Shown: in pieces, positions 1,127 through 24,077 of the stretch
How the letters are laid out: each line of letters begins with the position of its first letter
How positions within the stretch are numbered: the first letter of the stretch is position 1
Assembly: GCA_036376135.1 (NCBI GenBank)
Contig: DASVAW010000011.1
Span: 1-35,583, forward strand
Direction: 5' to 3'
DNA: 35,583 bases
Source of the DNA: Candidatus Polarisedimenticolaceae bacterium
Lineage (GTDB): Bacteria; Acidobacteriota; Polarisedimenticolia; Polarisedimenticolales; DASRJG01
Notes under the pieces: generated by a model
The model's database searches: none
Seen by the model: only the letters and a program-made list of their open reading frames with translations
What the model was told of the DNA's origin: nothing
Made by a program: the position numbers and the translations under genes

Positions 1127-1129
1127 CCC

Positions 1130-1945
1130 ATGGCGAGGCGGCGGCTTCCCGGGTTCGGGCTGTCGATGGGGTTCACGCTGACCTACCTGTGTCTGGTGAT
1201 CCTGATCCCGCTGTCGATGATCGTGCTGAAGACGTTCTCGATGACCTGGGAACAGTTCGTCGCCATCATCACCTCCCCCCGGACGCTCGCCGCCTACCGC
1301 CTCAGCTTCGGGGCCGCGCTCGCCGCGGCCCTCGTCAACCTCGTCTTCGGGGTCCTGCTCGCCTGGGTCCTCGAGCGCTACACCTTCCCGCTGAAGCGCC
1401 TCGTGGACGGGATCGTCGACCTGCCCTTCGCGCTGCCGACGGCCGTCGCGGGGATCGCGCTCGCCGCGGTGTACGCGAAGGACGGCTGGATCGGCCGCTG
1501 GCTCGTGCCGTTCGGGATCGAGGTCGCCTACACCCCGCTCGGCGTCGTCGCCGCCCTCGTGTTCGTGGGACTCCCCTTCGTCGTCCGCACCGTGCAGCCG
1601 GTGCTGCGGGATCTGGACCCGGCGATCGAGGAGGCGGCGGCGAGCCTGGGGGCCGGTCGCGCGGTGACCTTCGTGCGCGTGGTGCTGCCGGCTCTGATGC
1701 CCGCGGCGCTGACGGGATTCGTGATCGCCTTCGCGCGCGGCCTCGGCGAATACGGCTCGGTGATCTTCATCGCCGGAAACATGCCGATGAAGTCCGAGAT
1801 CACGCCGCTTCTGATCATGATCCAGCTCGAGCAATACGATTACGCGGGGGCGGCGGCGATCGCGTTCGTTTTCCTCCTCGCCTCCTTCTCGCTCCTGCTC
1901 GCGGCGAACCGCCTGACGCTGCGGCAGGAGAAGCTCGAAGGCTAG
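1130..1945 (+). CDS. cysT: Sulfate ABC transporter permease CysT (CysU)
   Basis: This 271-residue inner-membrane permease has about six hydrophobic segments. It pairs with CysW to form the sulfate channel. The coupling loop that contacts the ATPase is visible near residues 160-190: EEAAASLGAGRAVTFVRVVLPALMP, the EAA motif typical of binding-protein-dependent permeases. The segment ARGLGEYGSVIFIAGN is characteristic of the CysT/ModB group. The ATG lies 3 bases after the sbp stop and cysW begins 4 bases after the cysT stop, so the three genes form one operon. Confidence 0.93.
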   Translation: MARRRLPGFGLSMGFTLTYLCLVILIPLSMIVLKTFSMTWEQFVAIITSPRTLAAYRLSFGAALAAALVNLVFGVLLAWVLERYTFPLKRLVDGIVDLPFALPTAVAGIALAAVYAKDGWIGRWLVPFGIEVAYTPLGVVAALVFVGLPFVVRTVQPVLRDLDPAIEEAAASLGAGRAVTFVRVVLPALMPAALTGFVIAFARGLGEYGSVIFIAGNMPMKSEITPLLIMIQLEQYDYAGAAAIAFVFLLASFSLLLAANRLTLRQEKLEG

Positions 1946-1949
1946 GGCG

Positions 1950-2768
1950 ATGCAGGAATCGCGGCTGTTCCGCTGGGCGCTGACGGCGATCGCGATCGCC
2001 TTCCTCGCCGCGTTCCTGCTCGTGCCGCTCGCGGCGGTCTTCTTCAACGGCCTGCGGGAGGGGTTGCGGGTCTACGCCGCGGCGGTGACCGAGCCCGACG
2101 CCCTCGCCGCCATCCGGCTCACGCTCACCGTCGCGGCGATCGCCGTCCCGCTCAACGTGCTCTACGGTCTCGCCGCCGCCTGGGCGATCGCCAAGTTCCG
2201 ATTCCCCGGACGGAATCTCCTGGTGACGCTCATCGACCTGCCCTTCAGCGTGTCGCCCGTCATCTCCGGCATGGTCTTCGTCCTGCTCTTCGGCGCCCAG
2301 GGGCTGTTCGGATCGTTCCTCATCGACCGCGGCTGGAAGATCGTCTTCGCCCTCCCGGGGATCGTGATCGCCACGATGTTCGTCACCGCGCCGATCGTCG
2401 CGCGGGAGCTGATTCCGCTCATGGAGTCGCAGGGGAGCGAGGAGGAGTACGCCGCGCTCACCCTGGGGGCGAGCGGCTGGAAGACGTTCGTCCTCGTCAG
2501 CCTCCCGAAGATCCGCTGGGGGCTGATGTACGGGACGATCCTGTGCACCGCACGGGCCATGGGGGAGTTCGGCGCGGTGTCGGTCGTGTCGGGCCACATC
2601 CGCGGCCGGACGAACACCCTTCCCCTCCACGTCGAGATCCTCTACAACGAATACCAGTTCACGGCGGCGTTCGCGGCCGCGTCGCTCCTGACGCTCCTGG
2701 CGCTGGCCACGCTCGGGGTCCAGTCCTGGCTCGCGTGGCGCGGCGAGCGGCGCCCGCGGGTGAAGTGA
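1950..2768 (+). CDS. cysW: Sulfate ABC transporter permease CysW
   Basis: This 272-residue multi-spanning permease is the partner of CysT. It shows the CysW pattern DLPFSVSPVISGMVFVLLFG, the EAA-type coupling loop (EEEYAALTLGASGWKTFVLVSLP) and ARAMGEFGAVSVVSGHIRG. Start and length are normal. In most bacteria cysA, encoding the ATPase, comes next. Here the following gene is a sensor kinase 7 bases downstream, so the ATPase must be upstream of the window, elsewhere in the genome, or shared with another transporter. Confidence 0.93.
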   Translation: MQESRLFRWALTAIAIAFLAAFLLVPLAAVFFNGLREGLRVYAAAVTEPDALAAIRLTLTVAAIAVPLNVLYGLAAAWAIAKFRFPGRNLLVTLIDLPFSVSPVISGMVFVLLFGAQGLFGSFLIDRGWKIVFALPGIVIATMFVTAPIVARELIPLMESQGSEEEYAALTLGASGWKTFVLVSLPKIRWGLMYGTILCTARAMGEFGAVSVVSGHIRGRTNTLPLHVEILYNEYQFTAAFAAASLLTLLALATLGVQSWLAWRGERRPRVK

Positions 2769-2775
2769 GGTCCGC

Positions 2776-4791
2776 TTGCGCGCACCGCGATTGAGTCTCC
2801 TGCTGATCCTCCTGAGCACCGCGCTCCTGGTGCTCGCGATCGGCGCGGTGTCGTGGTCGGCGTCGCGCGTCCTCGGGAGGATCGCGGAGGAGCAGGCGCT
2901 CTCCTCGGCCCGCGTCGGCGCCGCGGACGCCGTGAACGCCCTCCAACGCGAGCAGGACACCCTGGCGACCGACGCCGAGCTCCTCGCGGAGCGCCCGACG
3001 CTGAGGGCCCTGGCGGCGAGCCGCGACCGCGCCTCGCTCGAGCGCGTCCTCGACACCTTCCGGCGGACCTCGCACCTCGACCTGTGCGCCGTGATCGTGG
3101 ACGGCGCGATCGTCGGGGCGGCCGGCGGGGCGGTCCCCGACGAGCTCCTGGCGCTCGCCCACCGCCGCGTCCGCGTCTCCCTGACGCTCGACGACGCGAA
3201 GCGATCCGCCCGGATCACCTCGTTCGCCGAGGTCTCCGGCCATCCGGGGGCGGCGGTCCTCGTCTCGGACACGATCACCCCGACGAACGACGCCTCCGTC
3301 CGGCTCTGGAGCCGCGATGCGATCGAGCGCCAGGGGTTCGGCCCCCGCTCCCCCCTCCGCGAGGCCGCGCTGCAGGCCGGCGAATCGACCAGCCGCAAGC
3401 TCCGCGAGGAGCGCGCGCTGGTCGCCGTCGTTCCCGTCCGCAGCGCCGGCGCGATCGTGGGCATCGCGGAGGCGGAGGTCCCCCTCGATCGCGCGATCGC
3501 CGAGCGCAAGCGCTGGGTCCGCGACGTGCGCCGCATCGCGCTCGGGGTTCTCGCGCTCACCGTCGCCGGGAGTTTCCTTCTGGGCCGCTACCTCGCCGGT
3601 CCGATCGAGGAGATGACGAAAGCCGCGCAGCGCATCGGCCTGGGCGACCTCGAGACCCCGGTTCCGTCCGTGGCCGGCGGCGAGCTGGGCTCGCTCGCGC
3701 GCGCCCTGGACGAGATGCGCCTGCGCCTGCTGGAGCAGAGCCGCCAGCTCGGCCGGCGTCGCGCGGAGAGCGACGCGGTCCTCTCGGGAATCGTCGACGG
3801 CGTCTTCGCGGTGGACGGCGAGCGTCGCATCCGCCTGCTGAACCCGCGCGCCGCGAAGCTCCTGGGGATCACGCCGGACGAGGCGCTCGGCCGATTCTGC
3901 GGCGACGTGCTCCGGCCGATGGGCCCCGACGGCGTCCGGCCCTGCGAGGAGCATTGCCCGATCCTGGAGGCGCGCGCCGGAGGGCGCGCCCGCGCGGTCG
4001 AGTACCTCGAGCCCCGCGAGGGGACCAAGCTCACGATCGTGGTGACGAGCGCCCCGCCGGTGGAAGGGAGCCAGATCCAGCTGGTCCGCGAGGAGATGGA
4101 GGTCGAGACGACACGGCGCCTGCGCGACACGGTGGTCGCGAACATCTCGCACGAGTTCCGGACCCCGCTCGCGGCCCAGCTCGCGTCGATCGAGTTGCTG
4201 CGCGACCGGATCGGCGACCTCCCGCTCGACGAGGCGCGCAAGCTCGTGCTCTCGATGGAGCGCGGCGCGCTGCGCCTCACGCGCCTCATCGACAACCTGC
4301 TCGAGAGCGTGCGCCTGGACTCCGGGGAGCGCGGGATCCGGAAGGCCGAGGTCGACCTGGACGCCGTCGTCGAGGAGGCGGTCGAGTCGATGCGCCCGCT
4401 GCTCGACCAGCGCCGCCAACAGGTGCTCGTCGAGCTCCCCCATCCCCTCCCCACGGTCGTCGGGGACGCCCCGCGCCTCGTCCAGGTCGTCGTGAACCTG
4501 CTCGCCAACGCGAACAAGTTCGCCCTGGAGGGAACGACGATCCGGATCGGGGGCGCCGTCGAGCCCTCCGGCGTCACCCTCTGGGTGGAGGACGAGGGGC
4601 CGGGCCTTCCCGAGGGGGACGACGACACCGTCTTCGAGCGATTCGTCCGCCGCGCCGGCGAGGAGCCGGAGCAGAGCGGGATGGGCCTCGGCCTCTGGAT
4701 CGCGCGCTCGATCGTCGAGCGGCACGGGGGGCGGATCTACGCCGCGACGGTGGAACGCGGCGCGAAGATGTGTATCGTCCTGCCGACATGA
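2776..4791 (+). CDS. Membrane sensor histidine kinase (periplasmic sensor, HAMP, PAS, HisKA, HATPase)
   Basis: This 671-residue protein starts with TTG 7 bases after cysW, with GTGAGG upstream. A first membrane helix spans about residues 7-27 and a periplasmic sensor about 30-250. A second helix lies at about 252-274, followed by HAMP (about 275-325) and a PAS domain (about 330-430). HisKA has the phospho-acceptor His459 in NISHEFRTPL. The ATPase domain has an N box (NLLANANKF, about 574-582), DEGPG and GMGLGL. The PAS domain holds Cys375, Cys390 and Cys394 in a pattern seen in other PAS-type kinases, possibly for redox or metal sensing. The response-regulator gene overlaps by ATGA. The signal is unknown; the position behind sulfate genes hints at oxyanion or sulfur control. 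Confidence 0.9.
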   Translation: MRAPRLSLLLILLSTALLVLAIGAVSWSASRVLGRIAEEQALSSARVGAADAVNALQREQDTLATDAELLAERPTLRALAASRDRASLERVLDTFRRTSHLDLCAVIVDGAIVGAAGGAVPDELLALAHRRVRVSLTLDDAKRSARITSFAEVSGHPGAAVLVSDTITPTNDASVRLWSRDAIERQGFGPRSPLREAALQAGESTSRKLREERALVAVVPVRSAGAIVGIAEAEVPLDRAIAERKRWVRDVRRIALGVLALTVAGSFLLGRYLAGPIEEMTKAAQRIGLGDLETPVPSVAGGELGSLARALDEMRLRLLEQSRQLGRRRAESDAVLSGIVDGVFAVDGERRIRLLNPRAAKLLGITPDEALGRFCGDVLRPMGPDGVRPCEEHCPILEARAGGRARAVEYLEPREGTKLTIVVTSAPPVEGSQIQLVREEMEVETTRRLRDTVVANISHEFRTPLAAQLASIELLRDRIGDLPLDEARKLVLSMERGALRLTRLIDNLLESVRLDSGERGIRKAEVDLDAVVEEAVESMRPLLDQRRQQVLVELPHPLPTVVGDAPRLVQVVVNLLANANKFALEGTTIRIGGAVEPSGVTLWVEDEGPGLPEGDDDTVFERFVRRAGEEPEQSGMGLGLWIARSIVERHGGRIYAATVERGAKMCIVLPT

Positions 4792-5462
4792 AGATCCTCG
4801 TCGCCGACGACGACCTCGACCTCGCCGAGCTCGTGGCCTACGCCCTGCGGGGAGCGGGGTACTCCGTGGTCACCGCTCACGACGGCAAAGCCGCGATCGA
4901 CACCTTCCGCAACGAGAGCCCCGACCTCGTCGTCCTCGACGTGAACATGCCGCACTTCTCCGGCTTCGAGGTTCTCGAGAAGCTGCGCGAGACGACGTCG
5001 GTCCCCGTGATGATGCTCACCGTCCGCTCGAGCGAGGAGGACCAGGTCCGCGGCCTCGATCTCGGCGCCGACGACTACCTCACGAAGCCGTTCAGCCCCA
5101 GGACGCTGCTGGCCCGTGTGCGCGCGTTGTTGAGGCGGGGCGGCGCCGAGCGGCCGGGGAACCTCGAGGCTGGGGATCTCGTGCTCGACTTGTCCACGCA
5201 CGAGGTGCGGGTGGCGGGGGCCGAGGCCGTGAGACTGACCTCCCTCGAGTCGCGCCTGCTGCAGCTGCTGCTCGCCAGCTCCGACAAGCCGTTGCACGCC
5301 GACGCGCTCAGCCGCCAGATCTGGGGGGCGCGCGGGGTCGGCGACAAGCAGCTGCTCAAGCAGCTCGTCCATCGCCTGCGGAGGAAGATCGAGAAGGACG
5401 CCGCGGATCCCCGGCGGCTCGTGACGGTGCCGGGGGTGGGGTATCAGCTGAAATCGACCTGA
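4788..5462 (+). CDS. OmpR/PhoB-family response regulator
   Basis: This 224-residue cytoplasmic transcription factor is the evident partner of the kinase just upstream, whose stop it overlaps by ATGA. The receiver domain (about 1-118) has the acidic triad ADDD at 6-9, phospho-acceptor Asp51 in VVLDVNMP, Thr78 and Lys100 in TKPF. The C-terminal winged helix (about 127-222) has LTSLESRLLQLL, then HRLRRKIEKD as the likely recognition helix and VTVPGVGYQL as the wing. All key residues are present, so it should be phosphorylated normally. Its targets are not visible. The adjacent sulfate operon is the obvious candidate, by inference. Confidence 0.93.
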   Translation: MKILVADDDLDLAELVAYALRGAGYSVVTAHDGKAAIDTFRNESPDLVVLDVNMPHFSGFEVLEKLRETTSVPVMMLTVRSSEEDQVRGLDLGADDYLTKPFSPRTLLARVRALLRRGGAERPGNLEAGDLVLDLSTHEVRVAGAEAVRLTSLESRLLQLLLASSDKPLHADALSRQIWGARGVGDKQLLKQLVHRLRRKIEKDAADPRRLVTVPGVGYQLKST

Positions 5463-10496: not shown

Positions 10497-11063
10497 ATGT
10501 CCGCGTCACGCGAGACCGAAGTGAAGCTGCCCTTCGAGTCCACCCGCGCGGCGCGGGAGGCGCTGAGCCGCGCCGGGGCCCGCCTCGAGGTGGCGCGCTC
10601 GTTCGAGGACAACCGGATCTACGACCGCGGGGATGGTTCCCTGGAGCGGGACGGGCTCGTCTTGCGACTGCGCGTGGACGACGGCGGCGGGCGGATCACC
10701 TTCAAGGGGCCGGTCGAGGGGGAGCGCCGCCACAAGGCGCGCGTCGAACACGAGACCGTCGTCGGGGATCCCGACGCGGCGCACCGGCTGCTCGAAGGCC
10801 TCGGTTACCGCGTCGCGTGGCGTTACCAGAAGTACCGCACCACCTACCGGCTCCACGACGTCGAGGCGATGCTCGACGAAACGCCGATCGGCTGCTGGGT
10901 CGAGCTCGAAGGCGAGCCCGACGCGATCGATCGCGCGGCGGCCCGGCTCGGCATTCCCCCCGATCGCTACGTGACCGACACCTACCGCGATCTCGCGGTG
11001 CGTCATGCGCGCGAGCGCGGGATCGCCCTCGCCGACCTCGTCTTCGAGAGCGCGGCGCCGTGA
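10497..11063 (+). CDS. CYTH-domain protein (triphosphate tunnel enzyme, CyaB/thiamine-triphosphatase-like)
   Basis: This 188-residue cytoplasmic protein starts with the CYTH signature ExExK (Glu6, Glu8, Lys10). It continues with RIYDRGDGSLERDGLVLRLR and alternating basic and acidic strand residues that line the triphosphate tunnel (TFKGP, RYQKYRTTY, VELEG). Bacterial members hydrolyse inorganic triphosphate or thiamine triphosphate, or make cAMP (class IV cyclase); the substrate cannot be read from sequence. The start is ATG 10497 with no ribosome site, and a -10 element ends 6 bases before it. The stop overlaps the nucleotidyltransferase start as GTGA. Confidence 0.88.
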   Translation: MSASRETEVKLPFESTRAAREALSRAGARLEVARSFEDNRIYDRGDGSLERDGLVLRLRVDDGGGRITFKGPVEGERRHKARVEHETVVGDPDAAHRLLEGLGYRVAWRYQKYRTTYRLHDVEAMLDETPIGCWVELEGEPDAIDRAAARLGIPPDRYVTDTYRDLAVRHARERGIALADLVFESAAP

Positions 11064-12133
11064 GGGCGATGGTGCTCGCCGCCGGCCTCGGCGAGCGGAT
11101 GCTCCCGTTGACGCGCACGGTGCCGAAACCGGCGATCCCGGTTCTCGGTCGGCCGCTCCTGGCGCAGGTGATCTCGAGGCTCGCCGCCGCCGGGGTGCGT
11201 TCCCTGGCGATCAACCTGCACCACCTCCCCGACCGGGTCCGGGAGGTCGCCGAAGCCGCGGTCCCGGCCGGGTTCGAGGAGCTCGCCTTTTTCGAGGAAC
11301 GCGGGACGATCCTCGGCACCGGGGGGGGCCTCAAGAACGCCGAACGGACGCTGCGGGGTCACGGCACGATCCTCGTTCGGAACAGCGATTTCCTCAGCGA
11401 CATCCCCATCGACCGGGCCCTCGAGGCGCATCGCCGGTCGGGGCTTCCCGCGACCCTGGTGCTCGTCCCCGAGCGGCCTGGGTATACCCCCCTCGACGTC
11501 GATGCGTCCGGGCGCGTCAGCTCGATCGGAGGGGAGCCGCCGGCGCCCGCCGGGTCGAGCCGCTTCCGGGGGACGTTCACCGGCCTCCACTTCATCGAGG
11601 AAGAGATCCTCGACCGGCTTCCTTCCGGTCGGCCGAGCGACATCGTCCGGGAGGTGTACCGGCCGCTGGTGGCGGAAGGGCGGCTGGGGGCCTGGATCCA
11701 CCGCGGGCACTGGCTCGAGTTCGGGACGCCCCGGGAGTACCTCGACGGTTCCCTGCAGCTGCTGGACCTTCCGTTCTCGCAGCTGCGCCGCTTCGCGGAG
11801 CCCGATCCGATCCGGGAGTTCCCGAACGCGCGGGTGGCGATGGGCGCCGGTGCGGAGGCGGCCGACCCGGTGGCCAGCCTGAGAGGGCGCGTGGCCCTCG
11901 GCTTGGCGGCGCGCGTCGGGTCGGGGACCCGGATCGTCGATTCCGTCGTCCTTCCGGAGGCCTGGATCGGCCCGGAGGCGCGCTTGGAGCGGGTCGTCGT
12001 CGGTCCCGGAGCCGAGATTCCCGCGGGATTCTCGATCCAGGACGCTCTCCTCTGCGCCGACCCGGGGGACGGATCCGCCGTCCCCCCCGGCGTGGAGAGG
12101 GTCTCGGGACTCCTCGTACGGAGGTTCGCGTGA
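11060..12133 (+). CDS. Sugar-1-phosphate nucleotidyltransferase with left-handed beta-helix tail (MurU-like)
   Basis: This 357-residue protein has a Rossmann-type N-terminal domain with the pyrophosphorylase signature LAAGLGERMLPLTRTVPKP (residues 5-23), which binds the NTP. TGGGLKNA and LVRNSDFL form the sugar/metal site. After about residue 235 comes a tail with hexapeptide-like spacing (VASLRGRVALGLAARVGSG, then VVLPEAWIGPEARLE), probably a short left-handed beta-helix. The adjacent kinase suggests the MurNAc recycling pair MurU/AmgK, in which MurU makes UDP-MurNAc from MurNAc-1-phosphate. Pseudomonas MurU lacks the tail, so a mannose-1-phosphate guanylyltransferase or other activity is also possible. 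GTG start in a GTGA overlap. Confidence 0.8.
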   Translation: MRAMVLAAGLGERMLPLTRTVPKPAIPVLGRPLLAQVISRLAAAGVRSLAINLHHLPDRVREVAEAAVPAGFEELAFFEERGTILGTGGGLKNAERTLRGHGTILVRNSDFLSDIPIDRALEAHRRSGLPATLVLVPERPGYTPLDVDASGRVSSIGGEPPAPAGSSRFRGTFTGLHFIEEEILDRLPSGRPSDIVREVYRPLVAEGRLGAWIHRGHWLEFGTPREYLDGSLQLLDLPFSQLRRFAEPDPIREFPNARVAMGAGAEAADPVASLRGRVALGLAARVGSGTRIVDSVVLPEAWIGPEARLERVVVGPGAEIPAGFSIQDALLCADPGDGSAVPPGVERVSGLLVRRFA

Positions 12134-13113
12134 GCGGGATGCGTCCGGAGCTCGTCGCCTGGCTCGAGGACGCCTACCCCCGCCTCCGCTGGCGGGGCCT
12201 CGCCGGGGACGCCTCCACCCGGAAGTTCTGGAGGATCCTCTTCCCCGAGCAGGCGACGCGGATCGTGATGGACTATGGCGCCCCCTTCGCCGGGGAGACC
12301 GACGACGTGCGACTGTCGCGGGTGTTCCACGAGGCGGGGCTGCGGATCGCGTCGATCGAACACGTCGCTCCCGACCCCGGCTGCCTCGTCCTCGAGGACC
12401 TGGGGGACCGGACCTTCGAGATCGCCCTGACCGGCGCCTCCAGCTCCCAGGTCGAGGACCTCTACCGGCGCGCCGTCGACTTCGCCGTCGCCATTGCGGA
12501 ACGGGGGACGCGGGCGTTGCGACGCTCGGAACGGGCGGCCGGCCCCGCCCTCGACTCCGAGAAGTTCCGATTCGAGATGGACTTCTTCGTCGAGCACTAC
12601 GTTCGCGGGTTCCGCGGCGCCGAGTCGATCGACGAGGCCCTCGTCGAGTCGCTGCGTCAACTCGCCGACGTCGCGGCGGCCAGCCCGCGGGTTCTCTGTC
12701 ATCGCGACTACCACGCCCGCAACCTGATGGTCCTCCGGGACGGCGAGCTCGCGATGGTGGATATCCAGGACGCCCGTTGGGGGCCGGACACCTACGACCT
12801 GGCCTCCCTGCTTCGGGACGCCTACGTCGACCTCGACGAGGAGTTGGTCGTCGAGTTGTGCGAGCGATACCGAACCGGGCTTCCCGATCCTCCCGAGCCT
12901 GGCGCGTTCCGCTCGCGCTTCGGGATCGTCGCCGCGCAGCGGATGATCAAGGCGCTCGGGACCTTCGGCTACCAGGTCCACCGTCTCGGGCGCGACCGCT
13001 ACCGGGAGGCCATTCCGCGCACCGTCCGCAGGCTCTCCCGGCTTCTGCCGACCTCCTCCGTCCCCGCCACGCTCGTGCACGCCATGGAGAGGGCGCGCCT
13101 ACTCGAAACGTAG
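12130..13113 (+). CDS. Aminoglycoside phosphotransferase-fold sugar kinase (AmgK-like)
   Basis: This 327-residue cytoplasmic kinase has a nucleotide-binding N-lobe (GDASTRKFWRI at about 26-36) and the catalytic loop HRDYHARNL (Asp193, Asn198). The metal-binding MVDIQDARWGPDTYDLASLL follows (Asp211). The wording of these motifs matches the AmgK group of anomeric sugar kinases, which phosphorylate MurNAc/GlcNAc at C1 in peptidoglycan recycling. The coupled upstream nucleotidyltransferase would use the product. GTG 12130 starts in a GTGA overlap. The 3' end overlaps the convergent TldE-like gene by 15 bases. The substrate is inferred. Confidence 0.8.
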   Translation: MSGMRPELVAWLEDAYPRLRWRGLAGDASTRKFWRILFPEQATRIVMDYGAPFAGETDDVRLSRVFHEAGLRIASIEHVAPDPGCLVLEDLGDRTFEIALTGASSSQVEDLYRRAVDFAVAIAERGTRALRRSERAAGPALDSEKFRFEMDFFVEHYVRGFRGAESIDEALVESLRQLADVAAASPRVLCHRDYHARNLMVLRDGELAMVDIQDARWGPDTYDLASLLRDAYVDLDEELVVELCERYRTGLPDPPEPGAFRSRFGIVAAQRMIKALGTFGYQVHRLGRDRYREAIPRTVRRLSRLLPTSSVPATLVHAMERARLLET

Positions 13114-14417: not shown

Positions 14418-14440
14418 TGACAACCTTCTATTTCTTGTCA
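14418..14440. repeat. Small inverted repeat between the TldD-like and TldE-like genes
   Basis: TGACAA (14418-14423) and TTGTCA (14435-14440) are exact inverted copies separated by 11 AT-rich bases, and the right arm includes the TldD-like stop codon. The AT-rich patch is unusual for this sequence. It could be an operator or a weak RNA hairpin controlling the downstream gene. No poly-T follows. Confidence 0.3.
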
Positions 14441-15634
14441 CGCGTGAACTCTGACCAACCCTAGTCGGCATGTCGGCGCGCCGACGCTCACGGCCAGGGG
14501 TTGACCATCCTTGAAACACGTTCCGAGGCAGGTGTCGAACTCGAGATCGTCCGCGATGCAATCAAAGCCGCGCAGCGCCTGCGCCGCCGTCATCGACAGC
14601 AGGCACGGCTGCACCGGTTCTACGATCGCACCGTCGCGGATCAGATCGGCATCGACGACGCGGAACATGGCGCGACCGGTTCGAGGGTCGACCGATGCCG
14701 CCTCCAGGCGGCGCACGAACAACCCCGACGTCACCCCGATCAGCGCATCCTCCGCGCGGTCGCTCCCCGTCGTCACGAACGTGCATCCCATCCGAGGTCG
14801 TGGCGGCTCCGGGAACGACGACCGGCGAAGTCGTCCCGCGCCGAGTCGCTGCGCGACGCGCCCCTCCTCGATGAGCGAGATCGGGACGACCGCTTCCCCG
14901 GTGTCGTCGATCTTCCACGGGACCCGACCCCTTCGGGGGTCGTCGACGATGCGGAGGCCCCTGGGGCCGACCTCCTCGGTCCTCGACGCAAGCCACGACC
15001 CGCCGCGGCTCACCACGTCCTCCTCGAGCGCGTGACCGACGAGCTCGTGGACGATGATGCCGGCGACCCCCGGGGCGAGAACGACGGGCATCACGCCGTC
15101 CGGGGCCGGGACCGCCCCCCCTCTCGCCTTCGCCCGGGCCACGGTCTCTCGAGCGAACCGCTCGAGGTCGGGTTCCCGACCCGGCCGCCAGACGGCATCA
15201 GCGACAGCGCTTCCCCCCTGCCTCAGTCGGACCTCGAGACGGATTCGGCTCCCGCGCCTGCGGTCCTGGGCGGGGGGCACCCCGGGGCGGCCGATCCCGA
15301 TCCGCTGATCGGTGGCGACGTACGTGACGCGGGCGTCCGGCCCGGCGAGGCCCCGGAGGCGCTCCGTCCATCGACGCGCCCCCTCGAGGTCCGGGGCGCC
15401 ACCCGAAACCGACGGGTGCGGGTCGGATTGGAAGGTCAGGTTCGCGCCCTCGGCCCGGCACCAACCCGACGACGTCGCGAGCCTCGAGCGAAGTGGCTCG
15501 CCCCCGATTCCCTCGAGAGTGAGGTCGTGGCGTTGCTCGAGGAAGACGTGTCCGCCCGGGGACAACCCGGCCGCCGCGTCCTGGATCCGTTGAAGGAACG
15601 GATCGTCGAAAACCGCGCCGTTTCGAACGTTCAA
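14438..15634 (-). CDS. tldD: TldD-like zinc metalloprotease
   Basis: This 398-residue protein has the TldD metal motif HELVGH (His196, Glu197, His201) in VAGIIVHELVGHALEED. A C-terminal Cys/Gly-rich segment follows (LGTCFKDGQPLAVSVGAP), where TldD supplies further metal ligands. It is shorter than the usual TldD (about 480), mainly in the N-terminal domain. Two such subunits form a cage that cuts peptides threaded through it. The TTG start is chosen because GGGGAG lies 8 bases before it and conserved sequence follows soon after. It is divergent from the receiver-TonB gene across 124 bases. No precursor-peptide gene is visible nearby. Confidence 0.78.
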   Translation of the reverse strand: MNVRNGAVFDDPFLQRIQDAAAGLSPGGHVFLEQRHDLTLEGIGGEPLRSRLATSSGWCRAEGANLTFQSDPHPSVSGGAPDLEGARRWTERLRGLAGPDARVTYVATDQRIGIGRPGVPPAQDRRRGSRIRLEVRLRQGGSAVADAVWRPGREPDLERFARETVARAKARGGAVPAPDGVMPVVLAPGVAGIIVHELVGHALEEDVVSRGGSWLASRTEEVGPRGLRIVDDPRRGRVPWKIDDTGEAVVPISLIEEGRVAQRLGAGRLRRSSFPEPPRPRMGCTFVTTGSDRAEDALIGVTSGLFVRRLEAASVDPRTGRAMFRVVDADLIRDGAIVEPVQPCLLSMTAAQALRGFDCIADDLEFDTCLGTCFKDGQPLAVSVGAPTCRLGLVRVHA

Positions 15635-15758: not shown

Positions 15759-17606
15759 ATGTCGAACTATACGCTACTCCTGATCGACTACGAGCCTCGC
15801 AGCATCGAGCGCATGCGCCGGCCGCTCGAGCAGGCGGGCATTCGCGTCGAGGTCGCGACGGACGGAGCCGCAGGACTCGAAGCATTCGAGCGCCTCCAGC
15901 CCGACGCGGTGATCGTCGAGGCGATGTTGCCGAAGCGGCACGGCTTCGAGGTCTGCCAGGAGATCAAGAAGTCCGCGAACGGGAAACGTACCCCCGTGAT
16001 CGTGACCACCGGCGTCTACAAGGGTCGCCGTTATCGCACGCAGGCGATGCACATTCACGGCGCCGACGAGTACCTCGAAAAGCCTCTCACCGACGACCAG
16101 ATCGTGCAGACGGTCAAACGCTTCCTCGCCGATCGGCCGGAACGCCCCGCCGCTTCGCCGGCGAGCACGCCGCACCCCGTCCCCAGCCCCGCCCCGGCCG
16201 CCCCTCGCGCCGCGGCGCCGCCACCGGTCGACTTCGCGGGCGACGACCCCGACCTCTTCGAGATCATCGACGAGTCCCTGGGCGGGCCGAAAGCCCCCCC
16301 TTCGGTCCCTAAGCCCCCGGCACAGGCCACGGCGAGAAGTTCCTCCGTCGTGAGCGACCTCACCGAGGATGAGATCTCCGCGCGCCTCGACGCCCTGCTC
16401 CCGTCGGATCCGACGGTTCCAACCGAGGTGTCGTGGGAATCGGGACACGCCGTCGGCCATCTCGACCCCGTCCCCGAGCCGAAGGTGAGCTCGATCGCCG
16501 TCGCCGAGCCCCCGCTCGTCGAGCCGATCCGGGACGTCGCCGCGGAGATCCTTGCGGATTTCCCCCCGATGCCGGAGGTCGACGGCCTCCCGGACGATCT
16601 CGGGACGGACACGACGAATCTCGACATCGCCACGCCGCGACCCGAAGCTCAGGTCTTCGACTTCGACGCCGGGCGCAGCGCCCGACGGAAGGGACGTGTC
16701 GCCACCGACCCGGCGCCGCCGAAGCCCGTTCCCGAGCTCTCCCGGAGCTCCTCCGCCGTCGCCCCGGTCGTCGAGATTGCCAAGGCGCCGGTCGTCGCGA
16801 CGCTCCCGAACGTCGATATTCCGCTGACCGAGACTTACGAGGCACCCAAACGCGGCCTCCCGATTTGGGTGTGGGTCCTCGCCGTGGCGGGACTCGCCGC
16901 GGGGGGTTACTTCGCGTTCTTCAGGACGCCACCGTCGGCGGCCGACGCCGCACCGGCCCTGGCCTCCCAGCCCGTCGCCCCGGAGCCGACCCCCGACACC
17001 GGCCCGGCCGCGATCGTCCCGCCTCCCGTTTCGGCTTCGGACGCTCCCGCTCGACCCCCGAACCCCGCCCCGGAGCCGGCGCCGGCTGCCGCGGCGACCG
17101 TGCCCCCTCCGGTTCCTGCACCGCAGAACCCCGTCGCCAAGAAACCCCAGGGACCCGCGGCGGCGCCGACGGTACCCGCACCGGCGGCGGCGCTCGCCGA
17201 GAACGTCCCCTCCGCACCCGCGTCCGAAACCCTCGACGACCCGTCGCTGGCCGTCGCCCCGGTGGCCCCGGCGATCGCGGTCGCGGCGCCGCCGAAGCCC
17301 GCGATCCGCGCCGGCGACCTCGTGTCGCTGAACGACGCGGACACGCTTCCGATCGGTCTCGACAAGCCGGCCCCGGAGTACACGACGCTCGCGCGCACCC
17401 GCCGCCAGGAGGGGACCGTCGTGTTCGAGGTGCTCGTCGACGAGACCGGCCGCGTGGTGGACGTCCGCCTCCTTCGCGGCATCGCCGGGTCGGACCTGAA
17501 CGAGGCCGCGATGAACGCCGCGCGGGCGTGGCGGTACAAGCCGGCGGAAAAGGACGGCGTTCCCGTGCGCGTGTGGCGACCGGAGCAGGTCCGCTTCAAG
17601 CTCTGA
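15759..17606 (+). CDS. TonB-family energy transducer fused to an N-terminal receiver domain
   Basis: This is a 615-residue fusion. Residues 1-125 form a response-regulator receiver (LLLID with Asp10, EKPL with Lys108), but the phospho-acceptor position is Glu54 in VIVEAMLP. Residues 126-365 form a Pro/Ala/acidic linker with several short conserved-looking helices (DPDLFEIIDESLG, DEISARLDALLPSD). A single membrane helix lies at about 366-388 (LPIWVWVLAVAGLAAGGYFAF). A Pro/Ala-rich periplasmic spacer follows (about 390-515), then a C-terminal TonB domain (about 520-615) with EYTTLARTRRQEGTVVFEVLVDETGRV and AMNAARAWRYKPA. TonB passes proton-motive energy to outer-membrane receptors. The B12 uptake genes begin 52 bases downstream, so BtuB is its likely client. 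Confidence 0.88.
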   Translation: MSNYTLLLIDYEPRSIERMRRPLEQAGIRVEVATDGAAGLEAFERLQPDAVIVEAMLPKRHGFEVCQEIKKSANGKRTPVIVTTGVYKGRRYRTQAMHIHGADEYLEKPLTDDQIVQTVKRFLADRPERPAASPASTPHPVPSPAPAAPRAAAPPPVDFAGDDPDLFEIIDESLGGPKAPPSVPKPPAQATARSSSVVSDLTEDEISARLDALLPSDPTVPTEVSWESGHAVGHLDPVPEPKVSSIAVAEPPLVEPIRDVAAEILADFPPMPEVDGLPDDLGTDTTNLDIATPRPEAQVFDFDAGRSARRKGRVATDPAPPKPVPELSRSSSAVAPVVEIAKAPVVATLPNVDIPLTETYEAPKRGLPIWVWVLAVAGLAAGGYFAFFRTPPSAADAAPALASQPVAPEPTPDTGPAAIVPPPVSASDAPARPPNPAPEPAPAAAATVPPPVPAPQNPVAKKPQGPAAAPTVPAPAAALAENVPSAPASETLDDPSLAVAPVAPAIAVAAPPKPAIRAGDLVSLNDADTLPIGLDKPAPEYTTLARTRRQEGTVVFEVLVDETGRVVDVRLLRGIAGSDLNEAAMNAARAWRYKPAEKDGVPVRVWRPEQVRFKL

Positions 17607-17658: not shown

Positions 17659-18528
17659 GTGCGACGACTCCCCGCGTTTGCCGTCGCGTTCGCGCTCGCT
17701 CTGCTCGCGGGGTGCGGCCCGAACGCCCCGGGTCCCCCGACCGGGGCCCACCCGCAGCGCATCGTCTCCCTGTCGCCGGCCCTCACCGAGATTCTCTTCG
17801 CCCTCGGCCTCGGCGATCGCGTGGCGGGGGTCACGAGCTTCTGCGACTGGCCCCCCGAAGCGCGGGAGAAGGCGAAGGTCGGGGGGTATGCCGATCCGTC
17901 GGTCGAGACGATCCTCGGCCTGAGGCCGGACCTCGTGATCGTGAGTCCCGGTCCCGGGAACCGCGACGCGGCCCTGGTGATCGAGCGCGCGGGAATCCGC
18001 GTGCAGGTCGTTCCCGCCGAGACCCTCGACGAGACGTTCGCGGCGTTCCGGCTCGTCGCCGACGCGGCCGGAGTTCCCGAGCGCGGCGCCGCCCTCGCCG
18101 CGGAGGTCCGCTCCCGTCTCGACGCCGTCGCCGCCCGCGTCGCCGGCGCGCCGAAGGTCCGTGCGTTGTTCTGCGTGCAGACCGACCCCGTGATCGTCGC
18201 GGGAGCCGCCACCCTCCCCTCCGAGCTCCTCGAAATCGCGGGAGGCGTCAACGTGGTGCCGCTCCCCCGCTACCCGCGCCTGGGGGTCGAGACGCTCCTC
18301 GAGCTCGCACCCGAGGCGATCCTGCAGTCGCGGATGGACGCCCCCGAGCCGGGAAGCGAAGGGAGCGAGGCGGCGTTCTGGCGGCGCTGGTCCTCGATTC
18401 CCGCGGTGCGCGACGGGCGCGTGTACGTTCTCGAGAATCCGCTGGCCCTGCGGCCGGGACCCCGGGTCGGCGTCGCCGCCGAGCAGCTGGCGGCGCTGCT
18501 CCACCCCGTCGCGGGGGACGCGCGTTGA
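17659..18528 (+). CDS. btuF: B12-binding lipoprotein BtuF-like (ABC transporter substrate-binding protein)
   Basis: This 289-residue protein has a lipoprotein signal ending LLAGC (Cys19). The mature part starts with RIVSLSPALTEILFALGLGDRVAGVTSFCDWPPEA, the usual opening of cobalamin-type helical-backbone binding proteins. EAFW-like SEAAFWRRWSSIPAVRDGRVYVL near the end is also typical. Neighbours BtuC and BtuD follow, and a B12 riboswitch and BtuB lie next, which supports cobalamin over haem or siderophore. GTG start. Membrane anchoring by a lipid is common in organisms that keep BtuF on the inner membrane. Confidence 0.88.
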   Translation: MRRLPAFAVAFALALLAGCGPNAPGPPTGAHPQRIVSLSPALTEILFALGLGDRVAGVTSFCDWPPEAREKAKVGGYADPSVETILGLRPDLVIVSPGPGNRDAALVIERAGIRVQVVPAETLDETFAAFRLVADAAGVPERGAALAAEVRSRLDAVAARVAGAPKVRALFCVQTDPVIVAGAATLPSELLEIAGGVNVVPLPRYPRLGVETLLELAPEAILQSRMDAPEPGSEGSEAAFWRRWSSIPAVRDGRVYVLENPLALRPGPRVGVAAEQLAALLHPVAGDAR

Positions 18529-19523
18529 GCCGCCCCTGGGGAAAACTCGCGCTCCTCGGCGCCGTCTCCGCCGCCGCCGTGGCCGCGAGCGTTGCCTTCG
18601 GTCCTTCCGACCTCGGCTTCTCGGGGCTCGTCGCGGCGTGGCGCGAGGGGGACGACGTCGCACGGCAGATCCTGCTCGACATCCGACTCCCTCAGGTCAT
18701 CCTGGCCGCCCTCGTCGGCGCCGCGCTCTCCGCATCGGGGGCGGCCTTCCAGGCGGTCCTGCGCAACCCGCTCGCCGACCCCTTCATCCTCGGCGTCTCG
18801 GGAGGCGCGGCGCTCGGCGCCACGGTCTCGATCGCGTTCGTCGAGGCCGCGATCGCGTGGAGCACGTGGACCCGCCCCGCGTGCGCCTTCGCGGGCGCCG
18901 TGCTGATGCTCGTCCTGCTGTTCGCGCTCGGGCGCCGCCGCGGCCGCACGGAAACGACGACGCTGCTGCTCGTCGGCGTCGTGCTCAACGCCTTCGCCTC
19001 CGCGCTGATCCTGTTCCTCGCGACGGCCGGCGACCCCGCCCGATTCCAGGAGATCATGCAGACCCTCGTCGGCAAGATGGGCGAGCCTGCGTGGGTCAAG
19101 GTCGGCGTCGTCGCGGGTCTCGTCGCGATGTCGACGGGTGTGTTGACCCTCTGCGGCCACACGCTCAACGTGCTGGCGCTCGGCGAGGAGGAGGCCGGAC
19201 ACCTCGGCCTCGCCGTCGAGCGCGCGACGTGGATCGCGCTCGTCGCCGCGTCGCTCGCGACGGCCGCCGGAGTCGCCTTCACGGGCATCGTCGGGTTCGT
19301 CGGACTGATCGTGCCGCATGCGGTGCGCGCGGTCTTCGGCTCGGACCACCGCCTGGTCGTTCCCGCGTCGGCGCTCGCGGGAGCGGGATTCCTGGCGCTC
19401 GCCGACACCGCGGCGCGGACGCTGACCGCGCCCGTCCAGCTCCCGGTCGGCGTCCTGACGCCGCTCGTCGGCGGCCCGTTCTTCCTCGTGCTGCTCCTGC
19501 GGCGCCTCAGGGATCGCGGATGA
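18525..19523 (+). CDS. btuC: B12 ABC transporter permease BtuC-like (FecCD family)
   Basis: This 332-residue permease has about ten membrane helices. The family blocks are clear: IRLPQVILAALVGAALSASGAAFQAVLRNPLADPFILGVSGGAALGA near the N-terminus and GIVGFVGLIVPHAVRAVFGSDHR near the coupling helices. LPVGVLTPLVGGPFFLVLLLRR stands at the end. It starts with TTG overlapping the btuF stop (TTGA). It ends in ATGA with the ATPase gene, so the three are translationally coupled. Confidence 0.92.
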   Translation: MSRPWGKLALLGAVSAAAVAASVAFGPSDLGFSGLVAAWREGDDVARQILLDIRLPQVILAALVGAALSASGAAFQAVLRNPLADPFILGVSGGAALGATVSIAFVEAAIAWSTWTRPACAFAGAVLMLVLLFALGRRRGRTETTTLLLVGVVLNAFASALILFLATAGDPARFQEIMQTLVGKMGEPAWVKVGVVAGLVAMSTGVLTLCGHTLNVLALGEEEAGHLGLAVERATWIALVAASLATAAGVAFTGIVGFVGLIVPHAVRAVFGSDHRLVVPASALAGAGFLALADTAARTLTAPVQLPVGVLTPLVGGPFFLVLLLRRLRDRG

Positions 19524-20314
19524 CCGCGGCGATCGAGGCCTCGGGGCTTTCCTTTTCTTACCGTCGCGCGCCGGTGTTCCTCGGCTTCGACCTTCGCGTC
19601 GAGCCGGGGACGATGACGGCGCTGCTCGGCCCGAACGGGTCCGGGAAGACCACCTTCGTCCGCCTCGCGGCGGGTTCCCTGCGCCCGGCGGCCGGGCGCG
19701 TGAGCGTCTTCGGCGACGACGTCGCGAAACTCCACCCGCGCGAGCGGGCGCGGCGCCTGGCGGTCGTTCCCCAGGAGTCCCATCCGGCCTTCGAGGCGAC
19801 CGTGCTGGAGATGGTCCTCCTGGGACGGTTCGCCCACCTCGGGTTCCTCGGGCTCGAAAGCGACGAGGACCTGGCGATCGCGCGCGCCGCGCTCGCGCGC
19901 ACGGACGCGTCGCACCTCGCCGATCGTTCCTTCGACGCGCTCTCGGGGGGCGAGCGGCAACGCGTGCTGCTGGCGCGCGCGCTCGCCCAGCAGTCGCGCC
20001 TGCTGCTGCTCGACGAACCGACCGCGTTCCTCGACCTCCAGCACCGGCTCGAGGTCCACGCCCTGCTCGTCGATCTCGTGCGCCGCGACGGGCTCACCGT
20101 GCTCGTCGTGAGCCACGATCTCAACCTCGCCGCGCGGTACGCCGACCGCCTCGTGCTCCTGCGCTGCGGCACGATCGCGGCGGACGGCACCCCCGAGGAC
20201 GTCCTGCGCCCCGATTCGATCCGCGAGGTCTACCGCGTCGACGTGGAGATCGCGCGGGATCCGATGACCGGACGGCCGTACGTCGTGCCGTTGAGGCCGA
20301 CCCCGCCGTCGTGA
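19520..20314 (+). CDS. btuD: B12 ABC transporter ATPase BtuD-like
   Basis: This 264-residue cytoplasmic ATPase powers the BtuC dimer. It has Walker A GPNGSGKTT (about 37-45), Q-loop VPQES, signature LSGGERQRV, Walker B LLLLDEPTAFLD and switch histidine VVSHDLN. The C-terminal REVYRVDVEIARDPMTGRPYVVPL is the usual tail of the iron/B12 importer ATPases. ATG 19520 overlaps the btuC stop. No B12-specific residue can be named; context gives the substrate. Confidence 0.92.
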   Translation: MTAAIEASGLSFSYRRAPVFLGFDLRVEPGTMTALLGPNGSGKTTFVRLAAGSLRPAAGRVSVFGDDVAKLHPRERARRLAVVPQESHPAFEATVLEMVLLGRFAHLGFLGLESDEDLAIARAALARTDASHLADRSFDALSGGERQRVLLARALAQQSRLLLLDEPTAFLDLQHRLEVHALLVDLVRRDGLTVLVVSHDLNLAARYADRLVLLRCGTIAADGTPEDVLRPDSIREVYRVDVEIARDPMTGRPYVVPLRPTPPS

Positions 20315-20326: not shown

Positions 20327-20516
20327 GTCCTTTCCGGTTCTTTGTCAGCCGATGGGCATTCAGGGAAGCGGGTGAGAATCCCGCGCGGCCCCCGCCACTG
20401 TGACCGGGGACGCCGAAGGCGCGGTCCGACGATTCGGACCCCCACTGGACGGGAACGTCTGGGAAGGGAGCCTTCGAGCGGTTGATCCGGGAGCCAGGAG
20501 ACCTGCCCGTCGGACG
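20327..20516 (+). ncRNA. Cobalamin (B12) riboswitch aptamer
   Basis: The conserved blocks occur in order: AGGGAA then GGTGAGAATCCC (20362-20381), CCCCGCCACTG (20390-20400) and the B12 box GAGCCAGGAGACCTGCC (20491-20507). A long closing stem is visible. CCGATGGGCA (20349-20358) pairs with TGCCCGTCGG (20504-20513) with one G-U. Binding of adenosyl- or methylcobalamin should lower expression of the downstream receptor gene btuB. The outer limits are approximate. Confidence 0.95.
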
Positions 20517-20528
20517 GTGAAGCGCCAT

Positions 20529-20547: not shown

Positions 20548-22625
20548 TGAGGCACACGATGGGCGGCCGCGCCGCGGCCGCGACCCTTCTCGCATTCTCG
20601 ATTCCCATCCTCGCCGAGGGGGAGCCCGTGCGCGCCCCCGGAGCCGAGGATCGCGTCGTGGTGACCGCGACGCGCGTCGCGGACGTCGACGCCGTCGTCG
20701 AAGAGGTCCCCGCGCACGTCACGGTCCTCGACCGGGAGCACATCGAGCGCTCGGGGGCGAGGACGCTCCAGGACCTGCTCGCCGCCGAGGCGGGGATCGT
20801 CGTGTTCGACCAGGTCGGAAACGCGGTCGAGACGACCTTCGACCTGCGCGGCTTCCGGGGGTCGGGCTGCGCGGTCTACCTCGACGACGTCCGTCTCAAC
20901 GACCCTCGCAACAACGGCCTCTCGCTCGAGACCGTCCCGATCGACGCCGTCGAGCGCGTCGAGATCGTCCGCGGCTCGGCGGCTGCGGTCGCGGGAGCCG
21001 GAGCCGAAGCCGGGATCGTCCGCATCCAGACGCGTCGGGGGGCCGCCCCGGCCCTCGCCCTCCACCTGGCCACCGGAAGCGACGGCCAGGAACGGTACGG
21101 CGTCGACGCGGGGGGCTCGCTCTCCGGATTCGACGGCTTCGTAAGCGCGTCCCACGACGACACCGACGGCTTCCGCGAGAACGCCGGCGGGCGCACGAAC
21201 CGCCTCGCGGGCTCGGTGGGGCGCACCTTCGCCGCCGGCAGGCTCGAGCTCTCGCTCACCGCGACGGACCAGCGCTGGGGGAACCCGGGGGCGCTCACCC
21301 TCGACGAGTGGGCGGCCGACCCCTCCGCGGCCCCCTACAACACCCTCGACCGATCCGAAGGGGACGTCCGGTTCGCCGCGCTGCGCTGGCGCGGCGCGGG
21401 ATCGGGACGGTTCACCTACGTCGCGAGCCTGGGTTGGCGCGACGCCGCGACCGAGGTGCTCTCCACCGGGCGCGCCGCGGCGGCGGGTTTCGGCGGGTTC
21501 TTCCTCGACAGCGACACGAGCGCCTGGAACGCCGCGGCGCAGGGGACGTGGCGCGCCGCGCTCGCCGGCCGGGAGAACACCCTCTCGGTGGGCGTCGAGG
21601 CGCTCGACGGCACGACCGACGCGCTCGGCTGGTTCACCCCGCCCGAGGACCCCGGTTCCGTCGATCGCGCGAACCCGAGCGCGGTGAACGCGATCGACCG
21701 CCGCACGGCCGCCGTCTACGCGCACGACTCGTGGAAGGTCTCCCCGAAGTGGACGCTCACGGCGGGTGCGCGTTTCGATCGGGACCGGCTCGCGTACGAC
21801 GAGGCGGTTCCGGACCCGACACTCGCCGACGCGCGCACCTTCTCCGAGACGTCGCTGCGCGCGGGGGCGGTCTTCGCGCCGGCCCCCTCGTGGACGGTGT
21901 ACGGCGCGTACGGCGAGGGGTTCCTGCCGCCGACGGTCGAACAGCTGTTCGCCTTTCCGACCTTCGGGTCGAACCCGGACCTCGAGCCGGAGCGCTCGCG
22001 CTCGATCGAGGCCGGCGCCCGGTTCCGGCGCGGCGGCGCGTCCGTCGACGCGGCCCTCTTCCGGATCGACACGCAGGACGAGATCGTCTTCGATCCGGAC
22101 TCGCCGCTCGGCCCGTTCGGCGCGAACGTGAACGCGGGGCGCACCCGCCGCCGCGGATTCGAGCTCTCCGCCCGGGCTCCGTTCGGGACGCTCGCGACCG
22201 GGCGCGCCTCGGTGACGCGCGTGGACGCCCGGTTCCGGAACGGTGCCGCGGCCGGGAACACGGTCCCCCTCGTCCCGGGGTGGCGCGCCTCGGCGGGGCT
22301 GGGGCTGCGCCTGCCGGGACGCGTCGAGCTCGGCCTCGAGGCGCAATACGTCGACGACCAGGTGCTCGACAACGACGACGCGAACGCGCAGCAGCGGCTT
22401 CCCGGATACACGATCGCGAACGCGCGCCTGGCGTGGTCGCCCGCCTTCGCGCGGGAGCGCAGCGAGGAGCCGCTCACCCTCTACGTCGAGATGCGCAACC
22501 TGTTCGACCGGGAGTACGCCACACGCGGGATCTACGCGCTCGACTTCACCACGTTCGAGAACGCCGTCTTCGTGACCCCCGCGCCGGGCCGGCGCGTCCT
22601 GTTCGGGCTCGCCTGGAGGCCGTGA
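20547..22625 (+). CDS. btuB: TonB-dependent outer-membrane B12 receptor BtuB-like
   Basis: This 692-residue protein has a signal peptide (about 1-24, [10 protein letters not shown]) and a TonB box at about residues 36-43 (RVVVTATR). The plug domain has [39 protein letters not shown] and [17 protein letters not shown] beta-barrel with alternating strands fills the rest, including the family stretch [39 protein letters not shown] 20547 is chosen because of GGGAGG 5 bases before it and the signal peptide directly after; in-frame sequence further upstream is riboswitch. Length is somewhat above E. coli BtuB (about 600). Cobalamin specificity rests on the riboswitch and neighbours. Confidence 0.93.
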
Positions 22626-22627
22626 CC

Positions 22628-23191
22628 ATGCCGCGACTCACCAAGATCTACACCCGCACCGGCGACGACGGAACGACCGCGCTCGGCGGCGGCCAGCGGG
22701 TGCCCAAGGACGCCCTGCGCATCGAGACCTACGGCACCGTCGACGAGCTCAACTCGACGATCGGCTGCGCCCTGGCGTCGGGGCTCGAGCCTTCGCTCGA
22801 GGAGGAGTTGCGCCGGGTGCAGAACGAGCTGTTCCACCTCGGCGCGGATCTTTGCGTGCTCGAGCCGGACAAGGCGAAGCTCCCCGTTCCCCGCGTGGAG
22901 CCGCGTCACGTCGAGGCCCTCGAGGCGGGCATCGACCGGATGAACGAGAAGCTCGGCCCCCTGACGAACTTCATCCTGCCGGGGGGCTCGCCCGGGGCGG
23001 CGCACCTTCACGCCGCGCGGACCGTCTGCCGCCGGGCGGAGCGCTGGCTCGTCGCCCTCGCACGCGAGGAGCCGGTCAATCCCGAGACGCTGCGGTACCT
23101 CAACCGGCTCTCGGATGCGCTGTTCGTGATGGCGCGATGGGAGAACCGCTGGCGGGGGATCGACGACCCTACGTGGGATTCACGGGCGTAG
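22628..23191 (+). CDS. pduO: PduO-type ATP:cob(I)alamin adenosyltransferase
   Basis: This 187-residue cytoplasmic enzyme converts imported cobalamin to adenosylcobalamin. Family motifs are intact: the ATP-binding [20 protein letters not shown] (residues 9-28), [11 protein letters not shown], and the helix-bundle segments [16 protein letters not shown] and [17 protein letters not shown]. It starts 2 bases after btuB and so belongs to the riboswitch-controlled transcript. Adenosylcobalamin made here would feed back on the aptamer. Its end overlaps the convergent accD by 23 bases. Confidence 0.93.
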
Positions 23192-24077
23192 CGGCGCGGG
23201 CGGTCACCGCCGCGGGCGCCGGGGCCGAGGCGCCCATCATGAACCGCAGCGACTGGATCAGGACCTCGCGCATCTGCGAGCGCTCGACGATGAAGTCGAG
23301 CATCCCGTGCTCCACGAGGAACTCCGCACGCTGGAAACCGACGGGGAGCTTCTGGCGGATCGTCTGCTCGATCACGCGCGGCCCCGCGAAGCCGATCAGC
23401 GCCTTGGGCTCCGCGATGTTGAGGTCGCCGAGCATCGCGTAGGAAGCGGTGACGCCGCCGGTGGTCGGGTCGGTGAGGACCGACACGTACGGGATCCCCT
23501 TCTCGTCGAGGCGCGCGAGGGCGGTGGAGATCTTCGCCATCTGCATGAGGGAGAGCGCCCCCTCCTGCATGCGCGCGCCTCCGGAGCACGAGATCACGAT
23601 GAGCGGCGAGCGTGTCTCGAGGGCCCGCTCGCAGCACCGCGTGACCTTCTCCCCGACGACGCTTCCCATCGAGCCGCCCATGAACCCGTACTCCATCACG
23701 GCGATCACGACCGGTTGGCCGCCGAGCAGCCCCTCGCTGGAGATCAGGGCGTCCTTGAGCCCCGTCGAGCTCTGGTAGTCCTTGATCCGCTTCGCGTACG
23801 CCTTCGTGTCGGAGAAGCCCAGCGCGTCCACCGGGGAGATCTCGGTGTCGAACTCCCGGAACTGGCCGTCGTCGTACAGGCCGGCGAGACGCTCCCGCGC
23901 GCTGATGCGGAAGTGGTAGTTGCACTTCGGGCAGACGTTCGCGTTGGCCGCGACCTCGCGCTTGTAGATGATCTCCTTGCAGTTGTCGCACTTCACCCAC
24001 AGGCCTTCCGGAACCTGGAACTTCCGGTCGGTCGCCTGCGGCTTGAAGGTGGTTTTTTCCTTCTTGAACCACGCCAT
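23169..24077 (-). CDS. accD: Acetyl-CoA carboxylase carboxyltransferase subunit beta
   Basis: This 302-residue subunit carries the N-terminal zinc ribbon (Cys30-x2-Cys33 and Cys49-x2-Cys52). The crotonase-type core has [33 protein letters not shown] and [16 protein letters not shown]. It joins AccA to move the carboxyl group from biotin to acetyl-CoA and make malonyl-CoA. A short Ala/Pro-rich tail follows the conserved part. accA is not in the window. The start lies 12 bases after the glycosyltransferase stop, without a strong ribosome site, suggesting coupled translation. Confidence 0.96.

Follow-up and report, generated by a model that had tools for sequence, protein, structure and literature searches.

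The gene at positions 15759-17606 of the window, the 35,583-nucleotide stretch of Acidobacteriota DNA that was analysed, encodes a 615-residue protein in which a receiver head is joined through a long linker and one transmembrane (TM) helix to a TonB C-terminal (TonB_C) domain. The gene stands first in an operon-like array with btuF, btuC and btuD, after which come a cobalamin riboswitch, btuB and cobO. The head reads best as a phosphorylation-dead pseudo-receiver, and the protein is one member of a wide and apparently undescribed Acidobacteriota family in which a pseudo-receiver, in some members a kinase, a TM helix and TonB_C follow one another. The best explanation, which we would give an even chance, is that the protein serves as a bitopic adaptor or sensor of the inner membrane, tying together or reporting on the B12 import apparatus, and not as a standard TonB motor arm. 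This explanation draws on the domains, the topology signature, the loss of the phosphorylation triad, the absence of an ExbB-contact motif and the conserved gene order, and extends from these to predicted binding partners and a predicted direction of information or force.

Domain architecture and the receiver head

The protein is encoded by one uninterrupted open reading frame on the forward strand. Its pseudo-receiver (residues 1-128, positions 15759-16142, with Asp10, Glu54, Thr84 and Lys108) contains a Response_reg match at residues 7-119 (Pfam, E 6e-19, far above cut-off). The AlphaFold model of the head is a confident receiver fold (pLDDT 95.6), and matches solved receivers in the PDB, the best of which include VicR, RpaA, YycF and DivK, with FrzS and the constitutively active PhoB D53E/D10A (2jb9) also among the matches. 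The head is followed by a Pro/Ala-rich linker of 240 residues (129-368, positions 16143-16862), compared in an alignment of 16 members from the order and class. A hydropathy scan found only one TM helix, IWVWVLAVAGLAAGGYFAF (about residues 369-387, positions 16863-16919), preceded by a KR pair, so that the N-terminus and the linker should be cytoplasmic and the TonB_C domain (residues 537-615, positions 17367-17606) periplasmic. The latter was recognised by Pfam (E 6.4e-18, far above cut-off) and by the NCBIfam TonB model, likewise above cut-off; its AlphaFold model is a confident TonB C-terminal fold (pLDDT 95.1), matching FoxA-TonB, TonB and the BtuB:TonB complex 2gsk, and its profile matches PDB TonB chains. 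The single frame, Pfam, hydropathy and AlphaFold thus bear out the receiver-linker-TM-TonB layout proposed in an earlier note on this DNA. A frameshift, chimera or sequencing error joining separate receiver and TonB genes, which that note had raised against itself, was rejected because dozens of other assemblies encode such a fusion as well. Within the linker, the alignment contains one short conserved segment, DLTEDEISARLDALLPSD, near residue 200, predicted to be a docking helix; the same segment is kept as the C-terminal end of receiver-only proteins, including those encoded by receiver-only genes at this locus.

A receiver alignment confirms Glu54 (VIVEAMLP) in the acceptor column, with Asp10 and Lys108 as the earlier note had described, and with Thr84. 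A receiver Asp merely shifted by one residue was ruled out, since the Glu lies exactly in that column. The head therefore has a receiver fold (Pfam, AlphaFold, PDB) without the phosphorylation site, carrying Glu54 where a receiver has an Asp acceptor with its acidic pocket and Lys. An intact triad of Asp10 (or Glu), Asp54 and Lys108 is present in 0 of 53 receiver-TonB fusions, whereas eight ordinary receivers that happen to be encoded in the same loci all have Asp54, and six of them the full triad. The acceptor residue of the kinase-less fusions (n = 25) is Glu in 24 and Gln in one, and that of the kinase-bearing fusions (n = 28) is Ser in 12, Arg in eight, Asp in four, Ala in three and Glu in one; the fusions with Asp at this site lack another catalytic residue. 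This drift among E, S, R, A, Q and D, together with the absence of the triad from all 53 fusions, is the main reason for calling the head a pseudo-receiver. The earlier note had named close homologues with Asp54 and no B12 link as evidence against its proposal; the close homologues lack Asp54.

The same note called Glu54 phosphomimetic, and in a corresponding alternative the residue is a true phosphomimic, which locks the head in the active receiver shape with its output face permanently 'on'. Glu is found at the site not only in nearly all kinase-less fusions but also in most receiver-only proteins, Asp10, Thr84 and Lys108 are mostly kept within the window's order, and a constitutively active PhoB is among the fold matches, all consistent with mimicry; kinase-bearing homologues, by contrast, mostly have Ser, Arg or Ala, and can have Asp at the Lys108 position. 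Furthermore, the best receiver matches outside Acidobacteriota (Anaeromyxobacter and others), which have no TonB domain, have Asp at the acceptor site, so that the change to Glu looks like a loss of phosphorylation. True phosphomimicry is therefore not the simplest reading and seems to us rather improbable, although the near-constant Glu of the kinase-less members could also fit a fixed surface resembling the active state. Such a surface would be compatible with an adaptor function, and both can be true together.

The TonB domain and the ExbB motor

In the TonB motor of E. coli, Ser16 and His20 of the TonB SHLS motif are reported from cryo-EM to contact ExbB, with the His being essential (PMC12215075). 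The window's fusion has a TonB C-terminal domain by profile and structure match, and lacks the SHLS (Ser-X3-His) motif in its TM helix; no mid-TM His was present in any fusion helix compared. In a further receiver-TonB protein, from genome G007, the only His of the TM segment lies at its far end. By contrast, the mid-TM His is retained by most of the short canonical TonBs compared, including four encoded on other contigs of the same genome (C39, C107, C162 and C114) and eight from the order. One exception is an ExbB-linked TonB_C protein on the genome's own contig C1, which has no His in the helix found. No ExbB was detected on the window's contig, or at the 11 fusion loci searched with two query sequences (L183, L184). 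Other contigs of the genome contain five ExbB genes, and four of these have a TonB_C gene no more than 2 kb away. In two further genomes (G006 and G008; loci L130 and L131), where btuB is apart from the fusion gene, ExbB and a canonical TonB are encoded upstream of the riboswitch and btuB, and the His was seen in the G008 TonB. The motor linked to btuB thus looks standard in these genomes, suggesting that the fusion protein is something else.

The earlier note had described the protein as energising outer-membrane uptake. In a corresponding alternative, the fusion would be a dedicated energised TonB for BtuB, driven despite its altered TM helix by ExbBD encoded elsewhere, with the pseudo-receiver regulating or placing it. 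The match of its TonB_C profile and model to genuine TonB domains, including that of the BtuB:TonB complex, the TonB box-like sequence of BtuB and the operon position with btuFCD are what would be expected of such a protein, and the example of Myxococcus GltG (FHA-TM-TonB) demonstrates that contact with an ExbBD-like motor is possible for a TonB protein carrying a signalling head (PMC3169522). Because GltG contacts its motor protein, and because the C1 protein also has no His, a missing His does not prove missing motor coupling. Nevertheless, the lack of a mid-TM His from every fusion, the lack of ExbB at the loci searched and the presence of other ExbB-linked TonBs in the genome make an energising role doubtful, and a dedicated energised TonB unlikely.

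In the adaptor or sensor explanation, the TonB_C domain would bind the TonB box of BtuB and/or BtuF, and the pseudo-receiver and helix would hold a cytoplasmic partner, for which BtuD, CobO or another protein are options. The fusion protein would thereby link, or report the state of, BtuB-BtuF-BtuCD, with the energy for uptake supplied by ordinary ExbBD-coupled TonBs encoded elsewhere in the genome.

B12 linkage and the wider family

The genes that follow the fusion in the window are all on the forward strand as far as cobO. The BtuF-like periplasmic B12-binding protein (17659-18528; Peripla_BP_2, E 1.9e-31; BtuF is its best NCBIfam model, below that model's cut-off) starts 52 bases past the fusion's stop codon. 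It is followed by a BtuC-like ABC permease (18525-19523), a translated frame named by its conserved position after btuF in related genomes and by orthologue similarity, not by profile, and by a BtuD-like ABC ATPase (19520-20314; MTAAIEASGLSFSYRR...), which has a Walker A motif (GPNGSGKTT), an ABC signature (LSGGERQR) and a conserved place in the gene order. The cobalamin riboswitch (20337-20524; RF00174, 96.4 bits, full length) is the only one detected in the genome. Since it stands after btuD, it can by position control only btuB-cobO, and riboswitch control of the fusion gene was ruled out on this ground. The BtuB-like TonB-dependent receptor with the TonB box-like sequence (20548-22625, start codon inferred; TonB_dep_Rec, E 4.2e-55; Plug, E 2.7e-22) is followed by a CobO-like cobalamin adenosyltransferase (22598-23191, start inferred), PduO type by sequence and conserved with the locus in the order by tblastn. 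On the reverse strand, accD (23169-24077, identified from its translation, a conserved neighbour) is convergent, and upstream of the fusion gene are two divergent TldD/PmbA-family genes, including the conserved neighbour at 14438-15634 (PmbA_TldD_3rd, E 1.2e-27). Elsewhere in the window, positions 11063-13113 encode a nucleotidyltransferase and then an APH-family kinase, resembling the MurU/AmgK peptidoglycan-recycling pair, and positions 137-5462 contain an ABC importer set (binding protein and two permeases), then a long frame whose last domains are a receiver and an OmpR-type DNA-binding domain.

Relatives were sought in 100 related genomes, the window's order, 396 genomes of the phylum and named genomes, and the matches make up a family in Acidobacteriota. 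The B12 link noted earlier for the window (fusion gene before btuFCD and riboswitch-btuB) is conserved in 15 genomes from seven families and in two chromosomal settings. BtuF adjoins the fusion-family gene in six genomes (G000, G001, G004, G005, G010 and G013) and kinase-bearing members in eight more (G042, G057, G070, G082, G104, G112, G120 and G143), while in G002 the B12-linked locus is split, its two halves ending two contigs. The flanking genes are tldD/pmbA and cobO/accD in the window's order, and ffh and an S41 protease (upstream) in families f14 and f39; because they differ, the B12 link reflects more than a single chromosome stretch being conserved. In a tree of the receiver (128 columns, with many open forks), the seven B12-linked families sit in one part, with moderate support for their joining (97/73). 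Row L141, which is out of frame, was left out of the TonB_C alignment.

Within the window's order, a close BtuF (55-60% identity) is found in exactly those genomes in which the locus begins with a full-length fusion. In the order's other five genomes, all BtuF copies are distant and encoded elsewhere, and the equivalent position is occupied by a receiver-only gene immediately in front of cobO. These receiver-only open reading frames (L068, L069, L070, L072 and L073) carry the Glu motif and the tail segment too, and were observed 12-54 bases before cobO at loci without btuFCD. The B12-linked member of G010 (L071:1803-2897) consists of a receiver and a TM helix without TonB_C, and ends 84 bases before the btuF match, suggesting that B12-linked members can in some cases dispense with the TonB part. 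Fusion genes away from btu genes are present in G003, G006, G008 and G009, and also in G004 and G010. A family restricted to B12 loci was ruled out: outside the two clades most members are not near B12 genes, some adjoining accD and others neither.

These accD neighbours suggest an alternative in which the family has an accD-related function in envelope growth or lipid metabolism, with the adjoining B12 genes as passengers. At seven loci from several distant families (f15, f31, f44, f46, f66 and f11; loci L050, L054, L062, L067, L077, L155 and L168), accD is on the same strand at most about 0.4 kb downstream, and the window's order, too, has accD close to the locus. However, the B12 linkage persists in f14 and f39, with no accD in the stretches examined there, and in the order a close btuF occurs only together with the fusion. 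We consider the passenger interpretation of the B12 genes improbable, and retain a B12-related adaptor or sensor as the preferred reading for the window's protein.

Of the 53 fusions encoded at the loci sampled, 25 are receiver-TM-TonB proteins, to which the window's kinase-less protein corresponds in form, and 28 carry a Ser/Thr kinase after the receiver and before the TM helix. The kinase domains (Pkinase matches of 1e-38 to 1e-45) retain the glycine loop, the VAIK lysine, HRDxxxxN and an APE-type region, with the DFG recognised by eye, and look intact in sequence. Proteins of about 870-1180 residues with the order pseudo-receiver, Ser/Thr kinase, TM helix and TonB_C occur across the phylum (e.g. 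L049:7969-11481, L052:8518-12012 and L065:9451-12495). A broader proposal, which we put forward tentatively as possible but on the unlikely side, is that the TonB domain acts as the sensor in the periplasm for a pseudo-receiver or Ser/Thr kinase of the inner membrane, reading the state of an outer-membrane transporter (here BtuB) without energising it, and that these proteins form a new trans-envelope signalling class in Acidobacteriota. The restriction of the family to one phylum is provisional, since the scan outside it was pattern-based. Searches of literature titles and abstracts, mainly of openly available papers, for fusions of TonB with a receiver or a kinase, and for TonB or BtuB of Acidobacteria, gave no description. 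The window's protein does not stand alone, belonging to a wide family that is mostly away from B12 genes.

If the adaptor or sensor reading is true, TonB-type domains can also sense or hold receptors in addition to pulling on them, in combination with a cytoplasmic signalling head, and B12 transport at the outer membrane would be linked directly to control in the cytoplasm. It would also caution against labelling every TonB_C protein an energy transducer.

Comparison with known systems

With E. coli TonB and the TonB family (PF03544, TIGR01352), the fusion shares the periplasmic C-terminal fold, the single TM helix and a proline-rich periplasmic stretch. It differs from them in its large cytoplasmic pseudo-receiver and linker, its lack of the SHLS motif and His, and the absence of exbBD from the neighbours found. 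A parallel in layout is offered by the gliding-machine protein GltG (PglI) of Myxococcus xanthus, which like the fusion combines a cytoplasmic signalling domain (FHA), a TM helix and TonB_C (PMC3169522). By contrast, GltG has an FHA domain and not a receiver, and belongs to a gliding cluster with the AglRQS motor and no B12 genes; the window's fusion has no Pfam match to FHA, and its neighbours are btu genes.

The head resembles the pseudo-receivers of two other proteins. FrzS of Myxococcus, to which AglZ has been described as similar, has a receiver fold and functions independently of Asp phosphorylation (PMC1974792). It differs from the fusion in serving polar localisation for motility. To our knowledge, FrzS contains no TM or TonB domain. 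The pseudo-receiver of Caulobacter ShkA is reported to control its own protein and to bind c-di-GMP (PMC7010744). ShkA differs in being a histidine kinase without a TonB domain.

The kinase-bearing members invite a further comparison. Transmembrane Ser/Thr kinases with an extracytoplasmic sensor, such as the PASTA kinases, are known in bacteria. The larger homologues have in common with these a kinase, a TM helix and a periplasmic domain. The window's form differs from PASTA-type kinases in having no kinase, and the larger homologues differ in having TonB_C as the periplasmic domain and a pseudo-receiver at the N-terminus.
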